DNA of 64,000 bases from Streptomyces lydicus (lineage in GTDB: Bacteria > Actinomycetota > Actinomycetes > Streptomycetales > Streptomycetaceae): NCBI RefSeq assembly GCF_004125265.1, contig NZ_RDTE01000003.1, forward strand, positions 496,001 to 560,000. The letters run 5' to 3'. The notes below the pieces were generated by a model. It searched no databases and was not told the DNA's origin. It saw only the letters and a program-made list of their open reading frames with translations. The translations under genes were made by a program, and so were the position numbers. Of the stretch, positions 51,177 to 64,000 are shown one piece after another (within the stretch, counting starts at the first letter, position 1; the number at the start of each line of letters is the position of its first letter).

Positions 51177-52715
51177 TTAGATCAGGTCCATCGCGGCAAC
51201 CTCGTCGGGACGGCCGTAGCTCACGGGACCCTGGAAGCGCCGTCGGGCGGTGGCGAACCACCAGACGGTGGCGATGACCAGGACCACCGCCAGGGCGATG
51301 GGCGCGTAGTTGAACGAGGCGGGGGTGATCGGGGACGCCTGGGGCAGCATGAACAGCACATTGCTGATCAGGATCCAGGCCACGGCGACCGCCGCGACGG
51401 GCTTGCCGTAGCGGCCGAGGTTCCACGGTCCGGCCTGGAAGTCGTCGAGCCGCAACCGCAGGAAGATGGGTACGGCGTAGGCGAGGAACAGGCCGACGAC
51501 ATTGACGCTCACCACGGCGGTGAAGGCGGTGTGGGACCACCAGCCGGGCAGCACCAGCACCAGGGGGCAGGCCGCGGCGAGCCAGACGGCCTTCACGGGC
51601 GTACGGGTGCGCGCGGACACCGAATGCCACCAACGGGAGCCGGGCATCGCCCCGTCCCGGGAGAAGGCGAAGATCTGCCGGGTATTGCTGGTCATGTTGG
51701 CGAGACCACAGAAGAGCATGGCGCCGATAACGATCAACAGCAGGAACTCGGCGGTGCTTTGGCCGAGCGCGTCGACGAGAATCTGTACCGGCGGCGCCTC
51801 GGCGCTCGCGGCATGGCCGTAGTCACGGATCGCGTACACCAGGGCGAGCATGAGGATCAGTCCGGTGATCGCGGAGTAACTGATCGCCCGCATGATGCCC
51901 CGGGGGGCATTGACGGTGGCCTTCACCGTTTCTTCAGACATGTGGAAACTGCCGTCGAACCCGGTGAAGGTCCAGCTGGTGACGAGCAGCCCCAGCATTC
52001 CGCCGTACCACGCATGGGTGAAGCCGGTGTTGTTGACGAAGTGCAGGGCGAACGAAGGCGGTTGGTGATGACCGGGGATCAGCGCCAGCGCTCCGACGAT
52101 CACCACCATGCCGATCAGCAGCCACCACACGGAAATACGGTTCACCACGGCAACCAGCCGCACCGTATAGGTGTTGGCCAGTGCCTGGACGAGAAGGATG
52201 GCCGCGGTGATACCGACCGTCTGCTGGGGTGTCGGCTCGTAGGACGGCCACTGCATGGAGACGAACGCCTGGATGAAGGTGGCGGCGGCGAAGTTGGTGG
52301 CGGCGGTGCCGCCGACCTGGCCCACGAAGTTCAGCCAGCCCGTGTACCAGGACCAGGCGCCTTGATGCCGCTTGGCCAGCTTGCCGGCCGAGAAGTAGAG
52401 CGCGCCGCTGGTCGGGTAGGCGGAGGCGATCTCGCCCATCGCGGCACCGACGAACAGCACCATGACCGATACGCCGACCCAGCCGAAGATCAGAACCCGC
52501 GGACCGCCGGCGTTCATACCGAAGCCGAAAGAGGAGAAGATCCCGGAGATGATGTTGATGATGGTGAAGGAAATGGCGAAATTGTCGAACGCGCGGAATC
52601 GGCGGGTGAGTTTCCGCGGATAGCCCATGGCATGGAGCGTGGCGTCATCGTCGAGGGTGAAGGGGTCTGCCGCGTGGGGGGTTTTCGAGCGAGCTGGGGA
52701 CGTACGCTCGGACAC
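51177..52715 (-). CDS. APC-superfamily amino acid/amine permease
   Basis: The 512-residue protein has about 12 membrane helices. The N-terminal LTRRFRAFDNFAISFTIINI and EIASAYPTSGALYFSAG blocks are typical of the GABA/choline-type amino acid permeases of the APC family. It starts at GTG 52715, with AAAGG upstream. Substrate could be GABA, another amino acid or a polyamine. No catabolic partner is adjacent. Confidence 0.9.
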   Translation of the reverse strand: MSERTSPARSKTPHAADPFTLDDDATLHAMGYPRKLTRRFRAFDNFAISFTIINIISGIFSSFGFGMNAGGPRVLIFGWVGVSVMVLFVGAAMGEIASAYPTSGALYFSAGKLAKRHQGAWSWYTGWLNFVGQVGGTAATNFAAATFIQAFVSMQWPSYEPTPQQTVGITAAILLVQALANTYTVRLVAVVNRISVWWLLIGMVVIVGALALIPGHHQPPSFALHFVNNTGFTHAWYGGMLGLLVTSWTFTGFDGSFHMSEETVKATVNAPRGIMRAISYSAITGLILMLALVYAIRDYGHAASAEAPPVQILVDALGQSTAEFLLLIVIGAMLFCGLANMTSNTRQIFAFSRDGAMPGSRWWHSVSARTRTPVKAVWLAAACPLVLVLPGWWSHTAFTAVVSVNVVGLFLAYAVPIFLRLRLDDFQAGPWNLGRYGKPVAAVAVAWILISNVLFMLPQASPITPASFNYAPIALAVVLVIATVWWFATARRRFQGPVSYGRPDEVAAMDLI

Positions 52716-52834
52716 AACCGCAACCTTTCTGGGGGGAACCGAAGGGAGATGGGACCGGGTCGATCCCGAAGGGTGGAGCGGAAGGGGCGGGCCTTTTGCG
52801 GTGCCATTCGGTACGACTCGGGCCTCCTCAGGAA

Positions 52835-53791
52835 TCAGCCGCCATGGGGAACGGGGAGTCCGCAGGAGCGTCTGGCCCTGGTCAATTGCTCTTCGGGATC
52901 ACCGAATGCGCTCCAGGGCATGCGTGAGGCATACGGGCCCATGGCCGTAAAGACTTCCCGTGCCTCGAATTCGCGTTTCGCCATGTACAGCGCGTGGGCC
53001 AGATACGCCAGATCCAGCACCGGCGTGAAGCGGTAACCGGCCACCTGCGGCAACCAGTTGCGGTGGACGCCCAGGGCCGCCGAGATCCACTGGGGCCGCT
53101 CCCAGGTGTGGTCCGCGAGCAGTTCGGACGGGTTGTAGTCCTCGACCAGCGCCACCAGCGGCAGCAGCCGCAGCGGTGAGACGGCGGGGGCCCGCTGGCT
53201 CAGGAACGCGGCAACGTCCCAGCTCGCGCTGGACGAACCGCCGTAGCGGGTGAAGAAGAAGGACAGGAAGCGGTGGTGCGCCTCGCGGTGCCAGGGGTCC
53301 AGCCGGAGGATGTGGGCGAAGAGGTACCAGGGCCCGGCCGGAGCGGTCAGCAGCCCCTGCGGCGCCGGGTCCTGCGGGCGGTCGAGGCGCGTCAGCGCGA
53401 GGTGCGCCACCCAGGGCGTGGGGTCCTCGGGAAGCAGCTTCGCGGCCCGCTCACACGCCGACCGCGCTATCCGGGCCAGGGCGCCCTGCCGCCGGTCACC
53501 GGCGTCGGCCATCCGCAGCGCACGGAGCATCGCCACCCGGGCCCAGAACAGCGCCGCCTCCGGTCCCGGCTCCTCGGCGAGCCAGCGCTCGGCCAGATCC
53601 GAGTCGGCCGCCACGGACGCCAGCACCAGGGAGCGGTGGGCGCGTACCTCGAAATCCTCGCGGGCTTCCCGCAGAACTTCGTGCGCGCTCAAGTACCGTC
53701 CGGCCCGCACATCCATACACGCGTGCGCCAGCGCCCGGTCATTGGCAGCCGGACTCCACACGTACTGTCCCTCGAAAGAGCCGGCCGCCAT
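52835..53791 (-). CDS. Conserved hypothetical protein, TPR-like helical repeats
   Basis: The 318-residue protein is mostly alpha-helical, with repeated helix pairs (LAHACMDVRAGRYLSAHEVL, LVLASVAADSDLAERWLA) that resemble tetratricopeptide repeats. I cannot name a function. GGGAGGGG precedes ATG 53791. It is similar in character to streptomycete proteins of unknown function that are conserved in the genus. It lies 120 nt upstream of the permease on the same strand. Confidence 0.75.
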   Translation of the reverse strand: MAAGSFEGQYVWSPAANDRALAHACMDVRAGRYLSAHEVLREAREDFEVRAHRSLVLASVAADSDLAERWLAEEPGPEAALFWARVAMLRALRMADAGDRRQGALARIARSACERAAKLLPEDPTPWVAHLALTRLDRPQDPAPQGLLTAPAGPWYLFAHILRLDPWHREAHHRFLSFFFTRYGGSSSASWDVAAFLSQRAPAVSPLRLLPLVALVEDYNPSELLADHTWERPQWISAALGVHRNWLPQVAGYRFTPVLDLAYLAHALYMAKREFEAREVFTAMGPYASRMPWSAFGDPEEQLTRARRSCGLPVPHGG

Positions 53792-54755
53792 GGTCCCCTC
53801 CCGGTCACGAAGGCGTCATCCCCCACACCGCATTCCGGCTGCGCCGAATTCAGCCGGACCCTGCCACCGGTCAAGTGACAGCGAGCCACACCTTACTCAC
53901 CCCAACTCTCCGCGAAAACAAGCCGCCTGGAATATCTGGTTCCGCACCTTTTAGTCTCGGTGAGATTGAAAAGGAAACAACTTCTCGGCCAACCTTCCGA
54001 ACCTCCTTGCTTTGCACTCCTGTTCATCACCGTGCATTTATTTGGCATATTCACATGCCCACAGCACCTTCACAAACGGACATCACGGTCGGCTACCCCT
54101 CCGTATCCGCTACTTCCCTGAACACCGAACACCCCCCTCGACTCTCGGCCAGTTCAAGGAGGTTTTCCGGCCATGCGGGTCAGGGCGGCCCGGGAGCCGG
54201 GATCAACGGGCATGCGCCCGGCCCGGCGAGCGCACCCCTCACCCCTGAGAGGGTGCGACCCGCTCCGCACCCACCCCGCACCGTCACCGCGGCGGCGGTC
54301 ACCCGGCCCGCGCGGCGCCACGAGCGCCCCCGAATCATCAACGGTCGGTGAACTCCCGACGTGCTTGCGCACCGGAACAGCGGGCACCCGGAAGCCACGG
54401 GCCGGCCCGCCGTCCGGGCGGGCGCCGCCCCAACACGAAGTCGGCTCAAGAGCAACCGAATTAGCGGACGCTACTTTCCGGAAGCACGCGATTACATGTA
54501 GCGTTCGACTGGACCGGAGGCCGTGACTTCACACCACGTCACGGCTGGGTACGGGCATGGGAGCGAGCGTTCTTGCGGTACGAGCGGAGCGATCGCCCCC
54601 GATGGGCGCACCTGCACCACAAGTGTCTGGCCACCGCCCCGCACGACCACCGGACCGCCTCGCGATCGCTGCGTAGCACCTCAGCATCCCTGAACGTCGA
54701 GCACCGCCATGTCTGTCCGTACACGCCTGCTTTGCAAGAGGAATGGGCCCAGATC
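53792..54755. other. Long AT-richer intergenic region, no supported gene
   Basis: In nearly 1 kb, no frame shows a recognisable family or convincing codon bias. The part from about 53880 to 54140 is markedly AT-rich for this genome. It borders the putative peptide cluster and likely includes the promoter of the winged-helix regulator. The low GC could mark a boundary of acquired DNA or a regulatory RNA I cannot identify. Confidence 0.45.
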
Positions 54756-55313
54756 ATGTTAATGAACTCCTCGACGACCCCGCTTGCGTTGCGTCCGGAC
54801 GCCGACGTCGTCCGACCGCGCACAGCCGGGCCCGGCGAAGAGCCACCCCTGGCGGTCGACCGGCTACCCGACGGAAAGTGGCAATTGACCCTGCACGACC
54901 TGGAACCCGTATCGGTGCACCGGCTGCCGTCCGACGAGGTCCACATCATTCTCGCGCCGCCGGGCGAGGAACCGCCCCACCCCGAGGAGTCCCCGGCCGG
55001 CCGGACCCTGGCGGACCCGGTCCACATCGACACCGCGGCCCGGACGGTCTTCATCAGAGGGCGCCAACTCGATCTGCCACGGCTGGAATTCGATCTGCTC
55101 GCCCATCTGGTGCTGCACCCCCGGCGCGCCTTCACCCGGGAACAGCTGATGGAGGCCGTCTGGCCCAACTGCCAGTCCAGCACCCGCACCGTCGATGTCC
55201 ACATCGCCCGTCTGCGCCGGCGCCTGGGGCCGGGCCTGCGCAACACCATCAGCACGGTCTTCGGCATCGGCTACAAGTACCTGCCGGCCGCACAGGCCGA
55301 CGGCTGCGACTGA
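54756..55313 (+). CDS. Orphan OmpR/PhoB-type winged-helix regulator
   Basis: The 185-residue protein has a C-terminal OmpR-type winged helix (LEFDLLAHLVLHPRRAFTRE, then TVDVHIARLRRRL and GIGYKYLP) but no receiver domain. The first 95 residues are Pro/Glu-rich and of no known family. It therefore is not a phosphorylation-dependent response regulator and may be controlled by ligand, partner or expression level. ATG 54756 or 54762 is the start. It opens a group of genes with a peptide precursor and modifying enzymes, so it is their probable activator. Confidence 0.85.
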   Translation: MLMNSSTTPLALRPDADVVRPRTAGPGEEPPLAVDRLPDGKWQLTLHDLEPVSVHRLPSDEVHIILAPPGEEPPHPEESPAGRTLADPVHIDTAARTVFIRGRQLDLPRLEFDLLAHLVLHPRRAFTREQLMEAVWPNCQSSTRTVDVHIARLRRRLGPGLRNTISTVFGIGYKYLPAAQADGCD

Positions 55314-55451
55314 CGCACCGCCGCAACCGCCACCGGCCCGGCCGGGAGGTCCGGCCCGCAGCCGGCCCGCAGACCCGGCCCGTCCGCCGTTCCCGCGGCA
55401 CTCACGCGGCGCTCACGGCACGGGCCGGGAGCGACGATCCGGGAGGAACGG

Positions 55452-57164
55452 TCAGCCCCCGGCCGGTGAGGTGTTCAGGTGGGCGAGGGCTCCGGCCGCG
55501 GGCTCCTTGCGTACGAAGGCCCGGCGCAGGGCGTGGTACGGCTCGTCCGGGTCGAAGAAGGTGCGGTGCATACGGGCCAGTTCCTCCTCCCGGTAGGCGG
55601 CGAGCGGCCGCTCGGCCTCGTCGCGTTCCCGGGACGCCTTCTTCGTGGCGATACGGGCCTGGGTGGCGGGCGCCGAGGCCAGCCGGAGAGCGAGGCGGGC
55701 GGTCCGTGCGGCGAAATCCTGCGCGGTGCAGTCGAGGATCCGGTCGACCAGGCCCAGCCGCGCACCGGCCGCCGCGGTCATCGGCAGGGCGCGGGCCATC
55801 AGCTGCCCGGCCGCCTCGGGGCCTGCCCGGCCGGGCAGCGTATAGGTCCAGTACTCCGAACCGTAGAGCCCCATCAGCCGGTAGTGCGGGTTGAGCACCA
55901 CGGCCGAGCGGCACCACACCTCGTCGGCGGCGAGGGCCAGCATCGCCCCGCCCGCCGCGGCATTGCCGCCGAGCGCGGCGACCACCAGCCGGTCCGTGGT
56001 GGTCAGGACGGCGTGCACCAGGTCGTCCATGGCGTTGATATTGGCCCAGGACTCCTCGGCGGGATCGTCGGCGGCCTCGATGACATGGAGATGGATGCCG
56101 TTGGAGAAGAAGTCCCGGCGGCCGCCGAGGACCAGCACGGAGGTCGGCCGGGCGCAGGCGTGGCGGTAGGCGGCGAGCAGGCGCCAGCAGTGGTCGGTGC
56201 TCATCGCACCGCCGGGAAAGGAGAACTCCAGGAAGCCGGCCGGACCGTCCTCGCGGTAGCGGATGTCGCTCCAGGTGCGGGGCCCGTCGGCGCCGGGGCC
56301 GAGCGGGGCCGGGAGCTCCGGGAGCCGCGGGAGGCGGTCCCCCAGCGCCAGCGTGGCGGGCAGCTTGGGAGTGCGGGGCTCCCCCGGCGCGCGGGGCGCC
56401 CGCAGTTCCGGGATCCATACCGCGCCGTCGGCCGTCGCCCGGCAGATCGCGCCGCCCCGGGTGGCGAGCAGTTCACCGGGCCGGCCGGTCAGGGTGTCCT
56501 CGGGGTGGCCGCCGTGCAAGTACCAGCGCTCGCCGAGGAGTTCATCGCGGACGCCGGGCTGCGAATCGGCGGCACGCAGCGTGCGTACGACGGCGTCGGT
56601 GGGGTCGGACCGCCAGTCGATGCGGCGCAGCTCCTGATGGAAGGGCGGCCGGGGGCGGCCGGGTTGCGCGGCGTCGGCCAGGGCGGCCTGCGGCTGCGGC
56701 CGGTGGGTCCCGGAGGCCACACGGGCGACGGCCGTCAGGACCGCCTCGACCGCACCATCGGCGATCTCGTTGCGGTACAGGTCGCTCTTGCCCACCCCGG
56801 GTACGGGGAAGTCGGCCGTGGCCCAGATGTCGCCGGCGTCCATCTCGTCGTTGGCCTGGAGGACCGTGACTCCCCACGTGGTGGCGCGCAGGTGTACCGC
56901 CCAGTCCACCGATGACGGGCCGCGGTCGCCGACGGGTCCGGGATGCACGATCAGGCAGGTGTACGCCGACCACACCTCGCGGGGCACGGGCGTCTTGAGC
57001 ATCGGTGCCACGATCAGGTCCGGGGCGTGCCGGCGTACGGCCTCCAGGAGCGGTGTCTCACGCGTCACCAGCTCGACGCCCACGTGGTGTCCGCGCTCTC
57101 CGAGTTCCGCGTGGACGCGCTGCGTCAGGCTGTTGAACGCGCCGGCGATGAGCAGAATGCGCAC
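55452..57164 (-). CDS. hoxX: HoxX-like formyltransferase/crotonase fusion
   Basis: The 570-residue protein joins an N-terminal formyl-THF-dependent transferase domain (HPGPVGDRGPSSVDWA, DAGDIWATADFP) to a C-terminal crotonase domain (LGGNAAAGGAMLALAADEVW, PHYRLMGLYGSEYWTYTLPG). This is the architecture of HoxX, which makes CO from formyl-THF for the active site of [NiFe]-hydrogenase. No hydrogenase genes are in the window. GTG 57164 follows GGGGAG. It is divergent from the Gly-Cys-Ile-Ser peptide gene. It may serve a hydrogenase elsewhere or supply a formyl/CO unit to a local pathway. Confidence 0.9.
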   Translation of the reverse strand: MRILLIAGAFNSLTQRVHAELGERGHHVGVELVTRETPLLEAVRRHAPDLIVAPMLKTPVPREVWSAYTCLIVHPGPVGDRGPSSVDWAVHLRATTWGVTVLQANDEMDAGDIWATADFPVPGVGKSDLYRNEIADGAVEAVLTAVARVASGTHRPQPQAALADAAQPGRPRPPFHQELRRIDWRSDPTDAVVRTLRAADSQPGVRDELLGERWYLHGGHPEDTLTGRPGELLATRGGAICRATADGAVWIPELRAPRAPGEPRTPKLPATLALGDRLPRLPELPAPLGPGADGPRTWSDIRYREDGPAGFLEFSFPGGAMSTDHCWRLLAAYRHACARPTSVLVLGGRRDFFSNGIHLHVIEAADDPAEESWANINAMDDLVHAVLTTTDRLVVAALGGNAAAGGAMLALAADEVWCRSAVVLNPHYRLMGLYGSEYWTYTLPGRAGPEAAGQLMARALPMTAAAGARLGLVDRILDCTAQDFAARTARLALRLASAPATQARIATKKASRERDEAERPLAAYREEELARMHRTFFDPDEPYHALRRAFVRKEPAAGALAHLNTSPAGG

Positions 57165-57511
57165 AGCGGACTCCCCTGGGGCTGGAACCGGTCAGCGGGT
57201 GATTGATCGTGATCGTTCCCCACGAGCGGCCGTGCGCCGACCGAGCCGCGCCAGGGTCACCCGATCGACGGCGGCCGTGCGGCCCAATGTCCGGGCCGGG
57301 AGATCACCTGACGAATCGTCAGTTAGTTCCGTCCGCGTCCCATCTCAACGGAATCTCGCCAAAGTTGGCGCACTCCACGCGCTTCCACAGACCGCGACAT
57401 TGCCTTTAATTGACATTCACTTGGTCATACTTTTACCTTCTGTCGTGCGGCATCAGCGCAGGTCAGCGCCGTATGCCCGGTTCGTCTTCCGCATTCTCAC
57501 CGGAGGTTCCC
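57165..57511. promoter_or_regulatory. Divergent control region, HoxX-like gene / repeat peptide
   Basis: This 347-nt gap drives the HoxX-like gene leftward and the peptide operon rightward. The stretch 57330-57470 is AT-richer and includes TTGACATTCAC (57410-57420), a good -35-like TTGACA, then TACTTTT within about 18 nt (from 57428) as a possible -10 region. GGAGG at 57502-57506 is the ribosome site of the peptide. Confidence 0.5.
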
Positions 57512-57667
57512 ATGGAGCAGCTCATCAAGAAGATGGCCCAGGACCAGGTCTGGCAGAGCTGGCTGGCCGCCAACTCCGCACAGCAGGCGGCGAAGAACGG
57601 CTGCATCAGCGCGGTGCCGAAGGCGGGCTGCATCAGCGCGGCACCCAAGGCCGGCTGCATCTCCTGA
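57512..57667 (+). CDS. Putative RiPP precursor with three Gly-Cys-Ile-Ser repeats
   Basis: The 51-residue peptide begins at ATG 57512, five nt after GGAGG. Residues 1-28 look like a helical leader (MEQLIKKMAQDQVWQSWLAA at its start). Residues 29-51 are three repeats, NGCISAVPK, AGCISAAPK and AGCIS, placing one Cys and one Ser in each unit at a fixed nine-residue period. A multi-core RiPP precursor fits best, and adenylating, unknown and exporter genes follow on the same strand. I know no described class with this core and enzyme set. A metal-binding peptide is the main alternative. Confidence 0.8.
   Translation: MEQLIKKMAQDQVWQSWLAANSAQQAAKNGCISAVPKAGCISAAPKAGCIS
57596..57664 (+). repeat. 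27-nt repeats encoding the peptide cores
   Basis: Two full 27-nt units and one 15-nt partial unit encode NGCISAVPK, AGCISAAPK and AGCIS. GGCTGCATC is identical in all three; third positions elsewhere have begun to diverge. Confidence 0.92.
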
Positions 57668-57807
57668 CCCTCGCGCCTCAGGTGCCCGGAGCGGACCGGC
57701 GATCACCGCGAGCGGGCCACCCCCCGCTCACGGCCGCCGGACCGCTCCGGGCACCACCCCCTGCCTTCCCGTGTGGGCACCGCCTCCCGACCAAGGACGA
57801 GGAATCC

Positions 57808-59046
57808 ATGGATGGTCAGCCGACCGCCGAGGTCATCGAGCAGATCCGCGACATACCGATCTACCGTGCGTCGCTGGCGAAAGGCCACTTCCCCCTGCTC
57901 GACAAGCCGGAGATCGCGCGCGGCTTCCCCGACAACTGGATGACCCCCCGTCTGGCCGCCGCCCTGGAGTCCGGGGAAGCGGAGTTCGTCCTCTCCACCG
58001 GCACCCACCACGCCCGGATGCAGATCATCCGGCCTCCGTATTTCCTGCTGCACTCCTACTACCGGCTGTGGAGCGAGCATCCCGATATCGCCGACACCTG
58101 GGAATCGGGCTGCCGACGGGTCTCCCTGACCACGGTGCTGGCCACGGAGCATGTGGCGCGGGTCAATGCCGCACGGCGCGGCACTCCGCCGGACCCGGTG
58201 CCCGCCCCCGCCGACCGGCAGCTCGACGCGCGTACCTGCTACCTCAATCTGCGGCTCGATCCGGCGCTGTGGGAGCGCGACGACGTCGTGCGGATGCTCC
58301 GGGAAATCCGGGCCGCCGCGCGAGCGCACCCGCGCGGCTGGTACCACCTCGACTGCTCCGGATATCACCTGGCGCATCTGCTGCGAAAGGTCGCCGAATG
58401 GGGGCTGTGGGATGAATTCCCGCCGCCCGCCAGCATCATCCACGCCTACGAATACACCCCGGTGAACGTCCGGCGTTTTCTGCACCAGCACTTCGCCTGC
58501 CCGGTCATCGACCTGTTCGGCAGCACCGAGCTCGGATATCTCTACTTCAGCGACCGCCACGGCACCTATCGGCCGCATCTCGACAAAATGAGCGTCGAAC
58601 TCCATCCGGTCGCCGACGGCAGCACGATCCACCAGCTCATCGTCACCAGTGTGCGCAACCCCTTCATGCCGCTGGTCCGGTACCGCTCGGGCGACTGCGT
58701 ACGCACCGTGGACGGAACGCCGGACCCGGGAAAGATCTCCCAATTCTGCGGTCGCGAAAAGGAATTGCTCGACACTCCGCACGGCCCCGTCGCACAGGGC
58801 GACCTCGACCGGTGCATCGGCGAGACGTCCCCACAGGTCTTCGTGTACCAGTTGCGGCTGACCGGCGAGGCGACGGCAGAGCTGGTGTACACGACGTTCG
58901 ACGGCACACCCGTCGAGCCGGAACGGACCGCGGCGCTGGAGGAAGCCGTCGGTGAACTGACCGGGCGGCGCTGCCGGCTCGACCACCGCCCGCACCTCCC
59001 CGTCGGGAAGTCGGGAAAGTACGCCTGGCTCGGCACCGGCCACTGA
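57808..59046 (+). CDS. PaaK/CapK-like AMP-forming adenylating enzyme
   Basis: The 412-residue protein resembles phenylacetate-CoA ligase and coenzyme F390 synthetase-type adenylate-forming enzymes. DLFGSTELGYLYFS (the A5-like core), PLVRYRSGDCV and a C-terminal GKSGKYAWLG lysine motif are visible. The N-terminal P-loop-like region is diverged. Substrate is unknown; in a peptide cluster it may activate a carboxylate, either a small acid to be attached to the peptide or the peptide C-terminus. ATG 57808 follows GACGAGGA. It lies 140 nt after the precursor. Confidence 0.82.
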   Translation: MDGQPTAEVIEQIRDIPIYRASLAKGHFPLLDKPEIARGFPDNWMTPRLAAALESGEAEFVLSTGTHHARMQIIRPPYFLLHSYYRLWSEHPDIADTWESGCRRVSLTTVLATEHVARVNAARRGTPPDPVPAPADRQLDARTCYLNLRLDPALWERDDVVRMLREIRAAARAHPRGWYHLDCSGYHLAHLLRKVAEWGLWDEFPPPASIIHAYEYTPVNVRRFLHQHFACPVIDLFGSTELGYLYFSDRHGTYRPHLDKMSVELHPVADGSTIHQLIVTSVRNPFMPLVRYRSGDCVRTVDGTPDPGKISQFCGREKELLDTPHGPVAQGDLDRCIGETSPQVFVYQLRLTGEATAELVYTTFDGTPVEPERTAALEEAVGELTGRRCRLDHRPHLPVGKSGKYAWLGTGH

Positions 59047-59133
59047 CCCACCCGACGTCCTGCACCCCCGGACGCCTTCCGCACTCCGACGTCATCCGCA
59101 CCCCGACGTCTTCCGCACCCGGACAGGAGAAGC

Positions 59134-59658
59134 ATGACCACCCCGCCGCGGCTGTCCCCCGACGCTCTCGCAGAACTGCTCGGCACGGCGCTGCACACCG
59201 AGGTCGTGACGCATTTCGACGGCAAGAGCGCCGCCCCGCGGGAGTTCGTGGAGCGCCAGGTCACCGAGTGCCTGCGCTATCTCTACCTCGTCTCCCGGTA
59301 CCGCGACCGGCTCAGCGGTCTCTTCCTGCCCGTCGAACAGGACATCGACGAAATCTGGCACTACCTCATCCTGCAGACCCGCGAATACCGTGTGCTGTGC
59401 GAGGAACGGCTGCCGGGTCGCTTCTTCATCGAACACCGCAGCATCGCCTACGAGGACTACCAGCAGGAGCCGGGCCGCGAGCAGGCCCTCGAAGAGGCGC
59501 TGCGCTGGATTCCGCTGTACTGCCGGGAATTCGGGCCGTTCGACGAGGGCGCACTGCCGCACTGGACCATGGTGCGCTTCCTCCATGAGCAGCTGGGGCT
59601 GTCGCTCGCGGACATCGCGGCGCTGGAACCGGTGGAGCCGGCAACGGCGACGGCGTGA
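59134..59658 (+). CDS. Protein of unknown function, glycine-rich-domain-protein (GRDP)-like fold
   Basis: The 174-residue protein carries a DIDEIWHYLILQTREYRVLC segment followed by FIEHRSIAYEDY. These resemble the conserved D-x3-WH ... Y ... C ... H core of the glycine-rich domain-containing (DUF1399-like) family; function there is unknown. CAGGAGAAGC precedes ATG 59134. Its place between the adenylating enzyme and the MFS exporter suggests a tailoring or scaffold role in the same pathway. Four imperfect repeats of CCGACGTCTTCCGCAC precede it (59052-59120). Confidence 0.75.
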   Translation: MTTPPRLSPDALAELLGTALHTEVVTHFDGKSAAPREFVERQVTECLRYLYLVSRYRDRLSGLFLPVEQDIDEIWHYLILQTREYRVLCEERLPGRFFIEHRSIAYEDYQQEPGREQALEEALRWIPLYCREFGPFDEGALPHWTMVRFLHEQLGLSLADIAALEPVEPATATA

Positions 59659-59704
59659 AGCCCGTCGTCACCGGTCCCCCGTCCGGCCCGAACCGAAGGG
59701 AATC

Positions 59705-61012
59705 ATGAGGGCTCGCCACGCTCACCCCGCCGAGGGCGAAGTACCGCAGCAGCGGCGGATTCTGGCCGTCCTGGTCTTCTCCCAGATCCTCAGCGGCGCG
59801 GGTCTCGCCGCGGGGATCACCGTCGGCGCGCTGCTCGCCGAAGAGATGCTCGGCTCGACCGGGCTGGCGGGCGTGCCCAGTGCGCTGTTCACCGCCGGAG
59901 CCGCGCTCGGCGCCGTCGGCATCGGCCAGGTCTGCCGGCGCCGCGGCCGGCGTCCCGGTCTTGCGCTCGGGTACGCCGTCGGGGCGCTGGGCAGCCTCGG
60001 GGTCGTGGTGGCGGCCGCCCTCGGCAACGCGGTGCTGCTGTTCGCGTCCCTGTTCGTCTACGGAGCGGGCACCGCGACAAATCTGATGGCGCGCTACGCG
60101 GGTGCGGATCTGGCCTCACCCGCCCGGCGCGGACGGGCCGTGAGCACCGTGCTCTTCGCCACCACGCTCGGTGCGGTGATCGGTCCCAACCTGGTGACGC
60201 TGACGGGCCGTATCGCACACTCCTGGGGCATCCCCCGGCTCGCCGGGCCGTTCCTGCTCGCCGTCGCCGCGTTCGGGGCGGCCGCGGTGGTGCTGGCCGT
60301 GCTGCTGCGGCCCGATCCCCTGCGGCTGGCCGAGAAGCTGGCCGCGGCGCAGGCCGGGACGGCGGCCCAGAGCCCCGCGGACGAGGCCGGCGGCGGGCCG
60401 GATGCCAGGACGGACCGGCGCAGGGTGGTCACCGGCACCGGGATCATGGTCCTCACCCAGCTCGTGATGATCGCCGTCATGACGATGACCCCGGTACACA
60501 TGCAGGCACACGGCCACGGCACTCAGGCGGCCGGCTGGGTCATCGCCCTCCATGTCGGAGCGATGTTCCTGCCCTCCCCGCTCACCGGTCTGCTGGTCGA
60601 CCGGGTCGGCCGACGGTGGATCGCCGGAGCGTCCGGTCCGGTCCTGCTGGCCGCCGGGGTGGTGGCCGCCGCGGCACCGGACTCCGTGCCCGCGCTCGCC
60701 ACGGCACTGGTCCTGCTCGGCCTCGGCTGGAACCTCGGGCTGGTCAGCGGCACCGCGCTGGTCACCGACGCGCTGCCGCCCGCCCGTCGCGCGTCGGCGC
60801 AGGGACTGGTGGACGTCGGCATCGCCCTCGCGGGCGCCACCGGGGGAATGCTCTCGGGCCCGGTCGTCGTGCTGGGCGGCTACCCGACGCTGGCGCTGGC
60901 CGGCGGCATCCTCGCGATGGCGCTCGTACCCGTCCTCGCGTGGGCGGCCGGCCGGCCGCCGCGCACCGTCACCGCGCCCGCCGCTCGCCCTACGGAAACG
61001 GAACAGGCGTGA
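59705..61012 (+). CDS. MFS exporter
   Basis: The 435-residue transporter of the major facilitator superfamily has 12 predicted helices and a cytoplasmic loop around residue 230 (Ala/Gly/Asp-rich). QVCRRRGRRPGLALG resembles the loop 2-3 MFS signature, and DRVGRRW is its second-half counterpart. GAAGGG precedes ATG 59705. It closes the peptide gene group and probably exports its product or provides self-protection. A drug-efflux role independent of the cluster cannot be ruled out. Confidence 0.88.
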   Translation: MRARHAHPAEGEVPQQRRILAVLVFSQILSGAGLAAGITVGALLAEEMLGSTGLAGVPSALFTAGAALGAVGIGQVCRRRGRRPGLALGYAVGALGSLGVVVAAALGNAVLLFASLFVYGAGTATNLMARYAGADLASPARRGRAVSTVLFATTLGAVIGPNLVTLTGRIAHSWGIPRLAGPFLLAVAAFGAAAVVLAVLLRPDPLRLAEKLAAAQAGTAAQSPADEAGGGPDARTDRRRVVTGTGIMVLTQLVMIAVMTMTPVHMQAHGHGTQAAGWVIALHVGAMFLPSPLTGLLVDRVGRRWIAGASGPVLLAAGVVAAAAPDSVPALATALVLLGLGWNLGLVSGTALVTDALPPARRASAQGLVDVGIALAGATGGMLSGPVVVLGGYPTLALAGGILAMALVPVLAWAAGRPPRTVTAPAARPTETEQA

Positions 61013-61154
61013 ACACCCTTTCACGGAACGGATGTTCCCGGCTGTTCTGCGGGGGATTCCGGAAACTTGGCGTCATTTCTCGTTATCCCGCCCGAAACCT
61101 GGATGCTGCACTGTGAAGGCAGAGTGGAACCGTGCGGACGAACCACGGGGGGCG

Positions 61155-61580
61155 ATGATGCGGAAGGACGCCTGCATAGCGGGCATACCCGTGCTGCGCC
61201 TGTGCCGTATGTCGCTGACCGCCCTGCTGGTGGTCGCGGCCTTCCTGCTGGGTGGTGGTGCGGCGGCGCCCGGTGCGGCGAAGGCCGCGTTCTCCGCCCC
61301 GTCCGCCGCGAAGTCCGCGAGCACATCGGCCGTCAAGCCCGGCTATGAGAACGAAGAGGAAAAGGCGAAGCGCGAGGCCGAGCGCGGCCAACCCCGGCGC
61401 ACCGCCCGGACCTCCGTCGGCGTTCCCCGGCACACCGGCCGGCCGCTGCCGCCGTTCAGCGCGGGCGCCATGACGTCCGTCGCCACGACGGCTTCCGGTG
61501 CCCCGGCGGCCGGCAGCTCCACCAAGGCCGTGTCCCAAGGGGCCGGGTTCAGCGTCCTGCACTGCGTCTTCCGCTGCTGA
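61155..61580 (+). CDS. Small exported or membrane-anchored hypothetical protein
   Basis: The 141-residue protein has a hydrophobic segment (LTALLVVAAFLLGGGAAAPG) after a basic N-terminus, consistent with a signal peptide or anchor. A charged middle (YENEEEKAKREAER) and a Cys-containing end (FSVLHCVFRC) follow. Two ATGs at 61155 and 61158 follow a G-rich ribosome site. No family is recognised. The two C-terminal cysteines with a hydrophobic end suggest surface attachment or disulfide formation. Confidence 0.65.
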   Translation: MMRKDACIAGIPVLRLCRMSLTALLVVAAFLLGGGAAAPGAAKAAFSAPSAAKSASTSAVKPGYENEEEKAKREAERGQPRRTARTSVGVPRHTGRPLPPFSAGAMTSVATTASGAPAAGSSTKAVSQGAGFSVLHCVFRC

Positions 61581-61670
61581 GAGCGGTGTGGTGGCCTGCA
61601 CCACCCCCGCACCATGCACCGTTCCGCCACCACCCCACAGTGGCACCACTCATCAGCAGGAGACCTCCTC

Positions 61671-62273
61671 GTGGAGACCTTCATTCAGCATGCCCGGGGC
61701 CTGACGGCCCGTATCGCCGACCGGCGGGACGAACAGGAGACCTACGGCCGGCTCGCGGCCGGACAGTCCCCCCTCGCCCTGTTCATCACCTGTTCCGACT
61801 CGCGGGTCGTCCCCGCCCTGATCACCGGGGCGCGGCCCGGTGAACTCTTCGAGCTGCGGACGGCCGGCAACGCCGTACCCGCCTACCGCGAGGACATGGC
61901 GGCCTGCGCGGAAGCGGCCACCATCGAGTACGCGATGCGCGTCCTCGGCGTCGCCGACATCGTGGTGTGCGGCCATTCGCACTGCGGCGCGGTCGGCGCC
62001 AAGGCCCGCGGTGAGGACCTGACCGGCGCACCCGCCGTACGGGACTGGCTGGCGCAGCAGCTGTCCGACCACCTGCCCGCCGACGCGGAACCGACGGTCG
62101 CCGCCGCGGTCCAGCACCATGTGCGCGAACAGCTCGACCGGCTGCGCGGCTACCCCTGTGTCCAGGAGCGGCTGGACGCCGGCGAGGTGAAGCTGCACGG
62201 GTGGTTCTACGAGGTGCACACCGGCCTGGTGGCCGCGCATCATCCGGCCTCCGACCTGTTCCTCCCACTGTGA
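61671..62273 (+). CDS. Beta-class carbonic anhydrase
   Basis: The 200-residue enzyme interconverts CO2 and bicarbonate. Zinc ligands are visible in the family motifs CSDSR (with D/R pair) and HSHCGA. CAGGAGA lies before GTG 61671. It precedes a SulP transporter by 17 nt, a common pairing for bicarbonate uptake/conversion. Length is normal for the beta class. Confidence 0.95.
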   Translation: METFIQHARGLTARIADRRDEQETYGRLAAGQSPLALFITCSDSRVVPALITGARPGELFELRTAGNAVPAYREDMAACAEAATIEYAMRVLGVADIVVCGHSHCGAVGAKARGEDLTGAPAVRDWLAQQLSDHLPADAEPTVAAAVQHHVREQLDRLRGYPCVQERLDAGEVKLHGWFYEVHTGLVAAHHPASDLFLPL

Positions 62274-62290
62274 AGGCGGGTGGGCACCTC

Positions 62291-63745
62291 ATGAAGCGCT
62301 TCACCTCCTTCCGGGCGGACTTCACCGCCTCCCTCGTCGTCTTCCTCGTGGCCGTCCCGCTGTGTGTCGGGGTGGCCGTCGCCTCCGGAGTGCCGGCCGA
62401 GCTGGGGCTCGTCACCGGCGTGGTCGGCGGACTGCTCACCGGCTTGCTCCCGGGCAGCAGCCTCCAGGTCAGCGGTCCCGCCGCCGGTCTGACGGTGCTG
62501 GTCTTCGAGGCCGTCAAGGAGTACGGCATCGGGGCGCTCGGCGCGCTGGTACTGGCGGCCGGTGTACTGCAACTGGCCATGGGCGCCCTGAAGTTGGGGC
62601 GCTGGTTCCGGGCGATCTCGGTCGCCGTGGTCCAGGGCATGCTGGCCGGCATCGGGCTGGTCCTGATCGCCGGACAGCTCTACGCCCTCGCGGACGCCAA
62701 GGCGCCGGGCAGCGGACTCGCCAATATCGGCGGCATGCCCGGCCTGGTCACCGCCACCGCGGGGTCGGCCACGGCGCTGTCCGCGCTCGCCATCGGCGCC
62801 GGCACCATCGCCGTCCTGGTGCTGTGGCCGCGCTGGCGGCGCGCCGCGCGGATCCTGCCCGCACCGCTGGCCGCGGTGGCGCTCGCCACCAGCGCCGTGT
62901 GGGCGCTGGATCTGCCCGTCGCGCGCGTCGAGGTCAGCGGGCTGCTGGACGCGATCCAGCCGCCCGGCCTCACCGACCTCGGCCGGCTCACCGAGATCGG
63001 GGTGCTCGGCACGGTCCTCGCCTTCGCGCTGATCGCGTCCGCCGAGTCCCTGTTCAGCGCCGCCGCCGTCGACCGGCTGCACGACGGGCCGCGCACGGAC
63101 TACGACAAGGAGCTGATGGCCCAGGGCGCGGGCAACACCGTCTGCGGGCTGCTCGGTGCGCTGCCGATGACCGCCGTCATCGTCCGCAGCGCGGCCAATG
63201 TCCAGGCGGGTGCGAAGACCAAGGCCTCGCGGGTGCTGCACGGTGTCTGGCTGCTGGTGTTCGCCGCGGCGTTCCCGGCCGCGCTGGGTGTGGTGCCGGT
63301 GGCCGCGCTGGCGGGTGTGCTGGTCCATGCGGGCGGCAAGCTGATCCCGCTGCGCGAACTGCGGCCGCTGTGGCGCGAACACCGCGGTGAGGCGGTAGTA
63401 CTCCTGGTCACGGCCCTCGCGATCGTGACGGTCAACATGTTCGAGGGTGTCCTGATCGGTCTGCTGCTGGCGGTCGCGAAGACGGCGTGGGAGACCTCCC
63501 ATGTGCACCTCGAGGTCGACACCCCCGAGGACGAGGACGAGCCGGTGCGGGTCCGTGCCGTCGGCAACGCCACGTTCCTGCGGCTGCCCAAGATCCTCGA
63601 TCAGCTCGACGCGCTGCCCGCCGAGCGGGGAGTGGAACTCGATCTGAGCGGGCTGCGTCATCTCGACCACGCCTGCGGTGCCGCGCTGACGAACTGGGCC
63701 GAGCAGCACCGTCGTACCCGGCGGACCGTGGAGCTGGTGTCCTGA
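62291..63745 (+). CDS. SulP-family anion (bicarbonate/sulfate) transporter
   Basis: The 484-residue protein has about 10-12 membrane helices (ADFTASLVVFLVAVPLCVGV at the start, NTVCGLLGALPMTAVIVRSA in the middle) and a C-terminal STAS-like domain (GVELDLSGLRHLDHACGAAL). Next to carbonic anhydrase it is most likely a Na+-bicarbonate or bicarbonate transporter of the BicA type. ATG 62291 is the chosen start; the GTG at 62276 is an alternative. Confidence 0.92.
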   Translation: MKRFTSFRADFTASLVVFLVAVPLCVGVAVASGVPAELGLVTGVVGGLLTGLLPGSSLQVSGPAAGLTVLVFEAVKEYGIGALGALVLAAGVLQLAMGALKLGRWFRAISVAVVQGMLAGIGLVLIAGQLYALADAKAPGSGLANIGGMPGLVTATAGSATALSALAIGAGTIAVLVLWPRWRRAARILPAPLAAVALATSAVWALDLPVARVEVSGLLDAIQPPGLTDLGRLTEIGVLGTVLAFALIASAESLFSAAAVDRLHDGPRTDYDKELMAQGAGNTVCGLLGALPMTAVIVRSAANVQAGAKTKASRVLHGVWLLVFAAAFPAALGVVPVAALAGVLVHAGGKLIPLRELRPLWREHRGEAVVLLVTALAIVTVNMFEGVLIGLLLAVAKTAWETSHVHLEVDTPEDEDEPVRVRAVGNATFLRLPKILDQLDALPAERGVELDLSGLRHLDHACGAALTNWAEQHRRTRRTVELVS

Positions 63746-63820
63746 CGACCGGCCGCCCGGCCGTGCGGTCACCTCTCCGTACGGTCGGGCGGTGCCGGTA
63801 AGTTTCCCTTCGTTTACGGT

Positions 63821-63841
63821 AGTTGATCTAAAGTTGATCTA
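63821..63841. promoter_or_regulatory. Direct repeat AGTTGATCTA x 2, operator candidate
   Basis: AGTTGATCTA occurs at 63821-63830 and again at 63832-63841, an 11-bp period that places both copies on the same helix face. It lies about 70 nt upstream of the nitroreductase-like gene, in an AT-rich pocket, so it may be a regulator-binding site. Confidence 0.5.
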
Positions 63842-63909
63842 AGGCCAGGCCGGTCGCGGTGGACGCGGCGGCCGGCGCCACGATTGTCGTCGTCGAGGGG
63901 ATGGACGGT

Positions 63910-64000
63910 ATGCCTCTTCAGGGTGAGTACGAGCCGAGCCCGGAGCAGTGGGTACGCGATCAGGTCGAGGAGTACGAAGGCTCGGGCGGTACGAAAGGCA
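63910..64000 (+). CDS. Deazaflavin (F420)-dependent nitroreductase family, 5' end
   Basis: The first 30 codons (MPLQGEYEPSPEQWVRDQVE and on to GTKG) match the N-terminus of Ddn-like F420-dependent nitroreductases of actinobacteria, which continue with a TRGRKTG cofactor motif beyond this window. ATG 63910 follows GAGGGG by nine nt; ATG 63901 is possible. The rest lies outside the window. Confidence 0.75.
   Translation, partial: MPLQGEYEPSPEQWVRDQVEEYEGSGGTKG

Follow-up and report, generated by a model that had tools for sequence, protein, structure and literature searches.

A stretch of 64,000 nucleotides from Streptomyces lydicus (assembly GCF_004125265.1, contig NZ_RDTE01000003.1, positions 496,001 to 560,000; hereafter the window, from whose first letter all coordinates are counted) carries an open reading frame (ORF) of 51 codons whose product ends in three copies of a Gly-Cys-Ile-Ser motif, which raises the question of whether the ORF encodes the precursor of a ribosomally synthesized and post-translationally modified peptide (RiPP) and which neighboring genes would act on it. 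An initial annotation had proposed a multi-core RiPP pathway in which the peptide is accompanied by an adenylating enzyme (ADE), a GRDP-like protein, an exporter of the MFS family, a HoxX-like enzyme, and a winged-helix regulator, and all of these genes are present at the positions it gave. Comparison across genomes establishes that the repeated-core peptide gene cluster is real and widespread. From its sequences, the cluster very probably represents a RiPP-type family composed of the precursor, ADE, and the GRDP-like protein (the triad), together with the MFS exporter.

A probable precursor with a conserved leader and repeated cores

The precursor gene lies on the forward strand at 57512–57667 (ATG at 57512, stop codon at 57665–57667) and encodes MEQLIKKMAQDQVWQSWLAANSAQQAAKNGCISAVPKAGCISAAPKAGCIS. 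A Shine-Dalgarno sequence, GGAGG, occupies positions 57502–57506 of the same strand, five bases 5′ of the ATG, and most of the homologues listed likewise have a GGAGG-type site upstream. The product contains three Lys-x-Gly-Cys-Ile-Ser units spaced nine residues apart, and at the DNA level a 27-nt direct repeat occurs three times, exactly in register. Core 1 reads K-N-GCIS (57593–57610, forward strand), followed in the same orientation by core 2 (K-A-GCIS, 57620–57637) and core 3 (K-A-GCIS, 57647–57664), the last of which reaches the C-terminus.

Relatives of the GRDP-like protein were sought in genome contigs; 90 were found, and the best 80 loci were kept; one extra locus (L195) was added for some neighbor counts, giving n = 81. 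Together, 76 of these loci, L195, and the window provide 78 full precursors, corresponding to 75 distinct sequences that were each counted once. Their comparison defines a leader region at residues 1–23 (57512–57580, forward strand; pattern MEQLIKKMAQDxVWxxWxAANSA), in which L4, W14, W17, N21, and S22 are invariant. The 75 precursors hold 219 GC[IV]S units, 214 of them GCIS and five GCVS, with a Lys at position −2 from the Gly in 217. Three core copies are present in 59 precursors, two in 12, four in three, and six in one (Sorangium, L127), and in 68 precursors the C-terminus is exactly GC[IV]S. Single cores have decayed at a few loci (core 2 to GYIS in L095, core 1 to GCIC in L096, and core 3 to GRAS in L101), as would be expected if every core yields its own product.

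Constraint on the precursor acts at the protein level. Among 36 equal-length precursors, the median ratio of nonsynonymous to synonymous differences (pN/pS) is 0.32 overall, 0.49 for residues 1–28, and 0.16 for residues 29–51, these being pairwise medians that are not independent of phylogeny. The invariant Ser residues are encoded by codons of both families (AGC/AGT and TCC/TCG), and the Cys residues by TGC (72) and TGT (35). The low core ratio together with this synonymous freedom indicates selection on the peptide rather than on the RNA. The invariant leader residues, the repeated core, and the protein-level constraint are those of a RiPP precursor with leader and core, in agreement with the multi-core precursor originally proposed.

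Clear homologues of the ORF occur in 48 of 392 genomes of the genus. Fifty genomes match the peptide at E ≤ 0.01, and two of these (G367 and G387; E 7.5e-4 and 0.007, 31–37% identity) were discounted; one counted genome, G181, has a stop inside the peptide match. The GRDP-like protein is matched in 64 of the 392 genomes at E ≤ 0.001, strongly in 48 (E ≤ 1e-60) and by distant homologues in the rest. Forty-nine genus genomes contain at least one of the two genes; 47 of them contain both, and the remaining two are a draft of 700 contigs with the peptide only (G081) and a genome with a GRDP match only, in two pieces (G303). At the 80 loci the peptide is present at 76, at least part of ADE at 77, the GRDP-like protein, as the query, at 80, and an MFS match at 58 (tblastn E ≤ 1e-3; weak, partial, and distant matches included). 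The triad is complete at the same 76 loci, and at three of the others (L126, L132, and L138) the precursor is missing where a contig end cuts the locus. The linkage of the peptide to its neighbors, whose loss would have spoken against the original proposal, thus holds across genomes for both putative modifying enzymes.

Triad loci are found in many Streptomyces, in several other actinomycete genera (Kutzneria, Amycolatopsis, Sciscionella, and Saccharopolyspora), and in Sorangium, and the triad is also present in G816, a genome from another family of the class. Of the 394 class genomes searched, eight match ADE at E ≤ 1e-10; besides G816 and G915, these are six members of the genus. The weak match in G915 (L196) is another PaaK-like gene, which by eye appears to lie among polysaccharide genes, and it was rejected as a family member. 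In plasmid searches the GRDP-like protein was unmatched and ADE gave three weak matches, and a scan of viral contigs gave zero matches.

Upstream of the precursor, a promoter-like element (TTGACA-N16-TTTACCTTC) lies on the forward strand at 57410–57442. Of the 77 upstream regions compared, 61 contain the pattern TTGAC-N17..20-TTTAC, against a mean of 0.02 of 77 in 50 mononucleotide shuffles, and the spacing is identical in 59 of these 61. Weighing against its assignment as a promoter, a generic sigma-70 consensus scanner did not report the −35/−10 pattern. The occurrence of the ORF in 48 of 392 genomes, the purifying selection on its protein, and the conservation of this promoter-like element at a fixed spacing together indicate that the ORF is not a chance reading frame. 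An inverted repeat, CGCCAAAGTTGGCG (57357–57370), begins 155 bp before the precursor ATG and may serve as an operator; 19 of these 77 regions, mainly those of the nearest relatives, contain it or a close variant between −145 and −192. A perfect palindrome, CTGACGAATCGTCAG, is located at 57308–57322, and it was not among the palindromes listed (up to five per region) for the other 76 upstream regions.

Two proteins conserved with the precursor

ADE (57808–59046, forward strand) is a stand-alone protein of 412 residues that resembles PaaK-type enzymes of the ANL superfamily. A profile search of the PDB retrieved PaaK-type ligases (best E 1.2e-7), and the predicted model (predicted local distance difference test score, pLDDT, 91.8) adopts a PaaK/ANL fold. 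Its best VIA match is the putative acyl-CoA ligase BT_0428 (4rvn; Z 24.1 over 350 residues at 3.5 Å), followed by PaaK1 (2y27, Z 23.6), ClxA (9s45, 22.5), a PaaK-family AMP-ligase (6six, 20.6), NatL2 (6tm4, 20.3), and AjiA1 (6wuq, 20.2). T64-G65-T66, G238-S-T-E241, R291-Y292, G295-D296, G315-R316, and G403-K404 are invariant in 51 sequences, and all 51 thereby retain the ANL motifs, namely the P-loop, GSTE, YRxGD, the GR hinge, and the C-terminal GK lysine. The intact motifs and the predicted fold make it likely that ADE is an active adenylating enzyme.

The likeness to PaaK and the benzoxazole-forming ligases extends over nearly the full length of the fold (Z 20.2–23.6, rmsd 3.6–4.2 Å over 332–350 residues) and includes the adenylation motifs. 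Unlike these enzymes, ADE is genetically tied to a ribosomal peptide, and it is only 14–20% identical to them and far under the NCBIfam cut-offs for PaaK and related ligases (TIGR02155, 13.9 of 646 bits; NF045666, 32.9 of 300 bits). Pfam gives no match to ADE itself at E ≤ 5, and PF00501 is matched in three of the 51 homologues (best E 0.025). NatL2, AjiA1, and ClxA are benzoxazole-forming PaaK-type ligases, and their place among the nearest structures offers, by analogy, a lead toward ring or ester chemistry.

The GRDP-like protein (59134–59658, forward strand) has 174 residues and scores 12.5 bits against PF07173, under the cut-off of 22.7, so the GRDP name is a weak lead. Sub-threshold PF07173 matches (E ≤ 5) appear in five of 54 homologues, with a best E of 0.19. 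D72, W75, H76, T82, C89, G95, F98, and H101 are invariant in the 54 sequences and from this conservation may form a metal or catalytic site. A loose D-x-x-W-H...C...G..F..H signature is shared by 10 of 16 distant actinobacterial homologues, and a strict-spacing form of it matched 20 of the 54 family rows. Structure searches with the predicted model (pLDDT 84.8) returned no noteworthy PDB entry, with a best Foldseek E of 4.3 and no VIA Z ≥ 2 among 39 chains, a result that does not show a new fold. Some of the work on plant GRDP members concerns growth and stress, and the GRDP-like family has, to our knowledge, no assigned biochemical function.

The distant homologues were considered as hidden members of the pathway and rejected, as their 16 loci (L171–L186) contain no convincing precursor (tblastn E < 0.05) or ADE (best E 0.36). 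Small proteins with the GRDP-like signature stand in other contexts at L171, L172, L173, L175, L176, L177, L180, L182, L185, and L186. By eye, those of L173 and L176 adjoin XRE-type regulators and kinase-like genes, and L171 has ORFs resembling an ATP-grasp protein, an aminotransferase, an ABC exporter, and a PhyH-like oxygenase.

A proposed pathway and its alternatives

How might these proteins act together? ADE would act on the peptide in the following mechanism, to which, in outline, we give somewhat better than even chances. Transcription from the conserved promoter would yield the 51-residue precursor, whose leader (LxxxxxxxxxWxxWxxxNSA) may be bound by ADE, the GRDP-like protein, or both. 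ADE would use ATP to adenylate a carboxylate and, with the GRDP-like protein, couple it onto the Lys-x-Gly-Cys-Ile-Ser units, where the Cys and Ser side chains, being strictly kept in the cores, are the likeliest acceptors. A protease could then cleave after the Lys (or after Lys/Arg) in each linker to release several copies of a short modified peptide, and the MFS protein would export the product.

Multi-core logic of this kind is known from cyanobactin-type pathways, in which one precursor holds several copies of a core. The cluster is like multi-core RiPP systems in its conserved leader, repeated short core, possible protease sites in the linkers, and adjacent enzymes and exporter, but its enzymes, a ligase of the PaaK type and the GRDP-like protein, set it apart. 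Among 11 window proteins scanned with Pfam (51180–63745), class-defining enzymes of the lanthipeptide, YcaO/azole, radical SAM, lasso, and graspetide (ATP-grasp) classes are absent, as the initial annotation had claimed. If the peptide is modified by ADE and the GRDP-like protein, the cluster would represent a RiPP family with chemistry outside the established classes; it would show an ANL enzyme at work on a ribosomally made peptide and open the GRDP-like proteins to biochemical study. No description of the precursor or of the enzyme pair was found among the open-access literature matches listed, a set outside which subscription papers and most preprints lie, and no open-access paper matched the exact peptide strings.

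Several points weigh against this proposal. Locus L137 has the GRDP-like gene, the MFS gene, and a monooxygenase gene, with neither ADE nor precursor in the 8 kb of upstream DNA available. Profile scans of the triad revealed no PqqD-like RiPP recognition element (RRE), protease, or known RiPP enzyme; for the RRE, the six proteins of the initial annotation gave no PqqD-type Pfam match at E ≤ 1, although divergent RREs could escape such a search. In seven of the 75 precursors the C-terminus is not GC[IV]S, owing to residues past the last core in six and to decay of that core in one, so not every precursor is made with the core Ser at its end. Finally, the target of ADE might be a small acid unconnected with the peptide.

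In a different account, the peptide is an unmodified or oxidized thiol peptide with a metal-binding, redox, or signaling role, and ADE and the GRDP-like protein independently make a small acid derivative. The only reactive side chains of the invariant motif are Cys and Ser, and the carbonic anhydrase and SulP neighbors described below could fit a zinc or bicarbonate theme. Set against this is the near-perfect co-occurrence of the peptide and the two proteins in one operon-like order, which argues for direct dependence between them, and we consider the account quite unlikely. It is also unlikely that ADE adenylates the peptide's own carboxylate, at the Ser of a released core, to form a peptidyl-AMP or a Cys thiolactone or lactone. 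Such a route would recall microcin C (mccA-mccB-mccC), which has the same layout of a short peptide, an ATP-using adenylating enzyme, and an MFS exporter, and the 68 distinct precursors that terminate exactly in GC[IV]S would suit it. However, the internal cores and the seven precursors with other ends would offer a free Ser carboxylate only once proteolysis had taken place, and the core differs from that of microcin C in being repeated and in ending in Ser, not Asn. ADE itself matches PaaK-type ligases rather than a ThiF/MccB-type enzyme, and no ThiF Pfam match was obtained at E ≤ 1 for the six proteins of the initial annotation.

The peptide could instead be a carrier, a scaffold on whose GCIS Cys a small molecule is assembled and then cut off, an idea for which pearlin and 3-thiaglutamate offer a comparison. 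The invariant motif is indeed very short and set in variable surroundings, and the optional flavin monooxygenase found at 12 of 81 loci also speaks for this reading. Nevertheless, the motif occurs two or more times in each distinct precursor, so most copies are internal instead of occupying the C-terminus, the site at which a carrier would be extended, and the 11 window proteins scanned contain no LanB-type domain; we find the carrier role decidedly improbable. Hardly credible is the reading of the ORF as a cysteine-sensing attenuator, that is, an operon leader peptide, even though it is short, Cys-containing, and directly 5′ of the operon genes. The core pN/pS of 0.16, the free variation of Cys and Ser codons, the invariant leader residues distant from any Cys, and the lack of an Rfam match at gathering scores over 54000–64000 all oppose it, and on the amino-acid constraint, the leader, and the Rfam result it was rejected.

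Neighboring and accessory genes

The MFS exporter of the proposed pathway (59705–61012, forward strand; 435 residues, PF07690) follows the GRDP-like gene, and an unlike MFS protein lies near the triad at five of 81 loci. Beyond it, outside the interval of the initial annotation, lies a pair of accessory genes on the forward strand (61671–63745). The first encodes a β-carbonic anhydrase (CA; 61671–62273, PF00484) with the CSDSR and HSHC motifs for zinc ligands, and the second a SulP-family anion transporter (62291–63745, PF00916) that does not reach the NCBIfam threshold of either sulP or BicA. At the 80 loci CA is found at 50, SulP at 47, both at 44, and neither at 27; with L195 included, one or both adjoin the triad at 53 of 81. 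Four arrangements are seen, which differ in where and on which strand CA and SulP lie with respect to the triad; with absence counted as a fifth state, the tree requires a minimum of 12 changes, and for presence or absence alone a minimum of 10. Pro_CA is matched four times in the 9.24-Mb genome, counting the linked CA, from which simple arithmetic gives a chance adjacency within 8 kb of about 0.7% per locus. The 16 control loci L171–L186 have no CA or SulP at E ≤ 1e-8. In a sample of 121 genus genomes, a CA gene lies about 6 kb or nearer to the peptide or GRDP gene in 14 of 19 peptide-bearing genomes (in G017, where the contig is split, measured from GRDP), the genomes without CA there being G018, G031, G069, G094, and G102.

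The CA link also has evidence against it. CA homologues at E ≤ 1e-40 occur in 80 of the 121 genomes, so the CA gene is not cluster-specific and the adjacency alone is. The 27 loci without CA and SulP include some with incomplete flanks, the CA of Sorangium L127 is merely 34% identical, and the quick ADE+GRDP tree of 78 rows leaves 18 of its 75 inner branches open. Part of the association could be explained by rearranged ancestral synteny. The recurrent CA and SulP neighbors nevertheless provide a concrete, assayable target hypothesis, which belongs to a broader reading that we consider very doubtful: that the cluster defines a new RiPP class in which the ANL-type ligase and the GRDP-like protein replace known chemistries, for instance through ANL-driven acylation or azoline formation at Gly-Cys or Ile-Ser, and in which a thiol product hits carbonic anhydrase or the bicarbonate supply, with CA and SulP as self-protection.

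A flavin monooxygenase of the Baeyer-Villiger type, a possible tailoring enzyme, is located near the triad at 12 of 81 loci (L115, L121, L123, L127, L128, L129, L131, L132, L133, L135, L137, and L195), which belong to several lineages and include both Sorangium and both Amycolatopsis loci. Its best NCBIfam match is pentalenolactone D synthase (298.6 of 1100 bits), and its distribution requires at least five changes on the ADE+GRDP tree.

The two genes upstream of the precursor were not borne out as parts of the pathway; only in one clade are they conserved alongside the peptide. The HoxX/HypX-like gene (55452–57164, reverse strand; Formyl_trans_N/C and ECH_1 domains) is complete at 14 of 80 loci, and its product matches the solved HypX (6j1f) over the full length (E 4e-143). 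The five residues named as catalytic in the description of HypX (His74, Asp80, Asp109, Tyr416, and Glu426; PMC6802093) have equivalents in H74, D80, D109, Y428, and E437. It is the genome's sole full-length HypX match, and a [NiFe]-hydrogenase match and HypD lie near 8.28–8.29 Mb, 7.7 Mb away. From these sequence relationships HypX probably serves hydrogenase maturation and stands beside the cluster in one clade; in view of its scarcity at the loci and the hydrogenase and HypD elsewhere in the genome, it was rejected as a core enzyme.

The winged-helix gene (54756–55313, forward strand; PF00486) encodes an OmpR-type winged helix-turn-helix protein without a receiver domain. Matches occur at 27 of 80 loci, 13 of them at 34–38% identity and on the opposite strand, and as these 13 look by eye like the regulator half of a two-component pair, the gene was rejected as a core component. 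In an S. griseus-like clade (L071, L075, L077, L080, L084, L085, L090, L091, L093, L103, L104, L108, and L134), a sensor-kinase-like gene is seen by eye upstream, replacing the winged-helix gene and HypX, and a response regulator is called, likewise by eye, at part of the loci. Between the MFS and CA genes, positions 61158–61580 encode a small protein, secreted-looking by eye, with the C-terminus LHCVFRC, and homologues of it are present at 15 of 81 loci.

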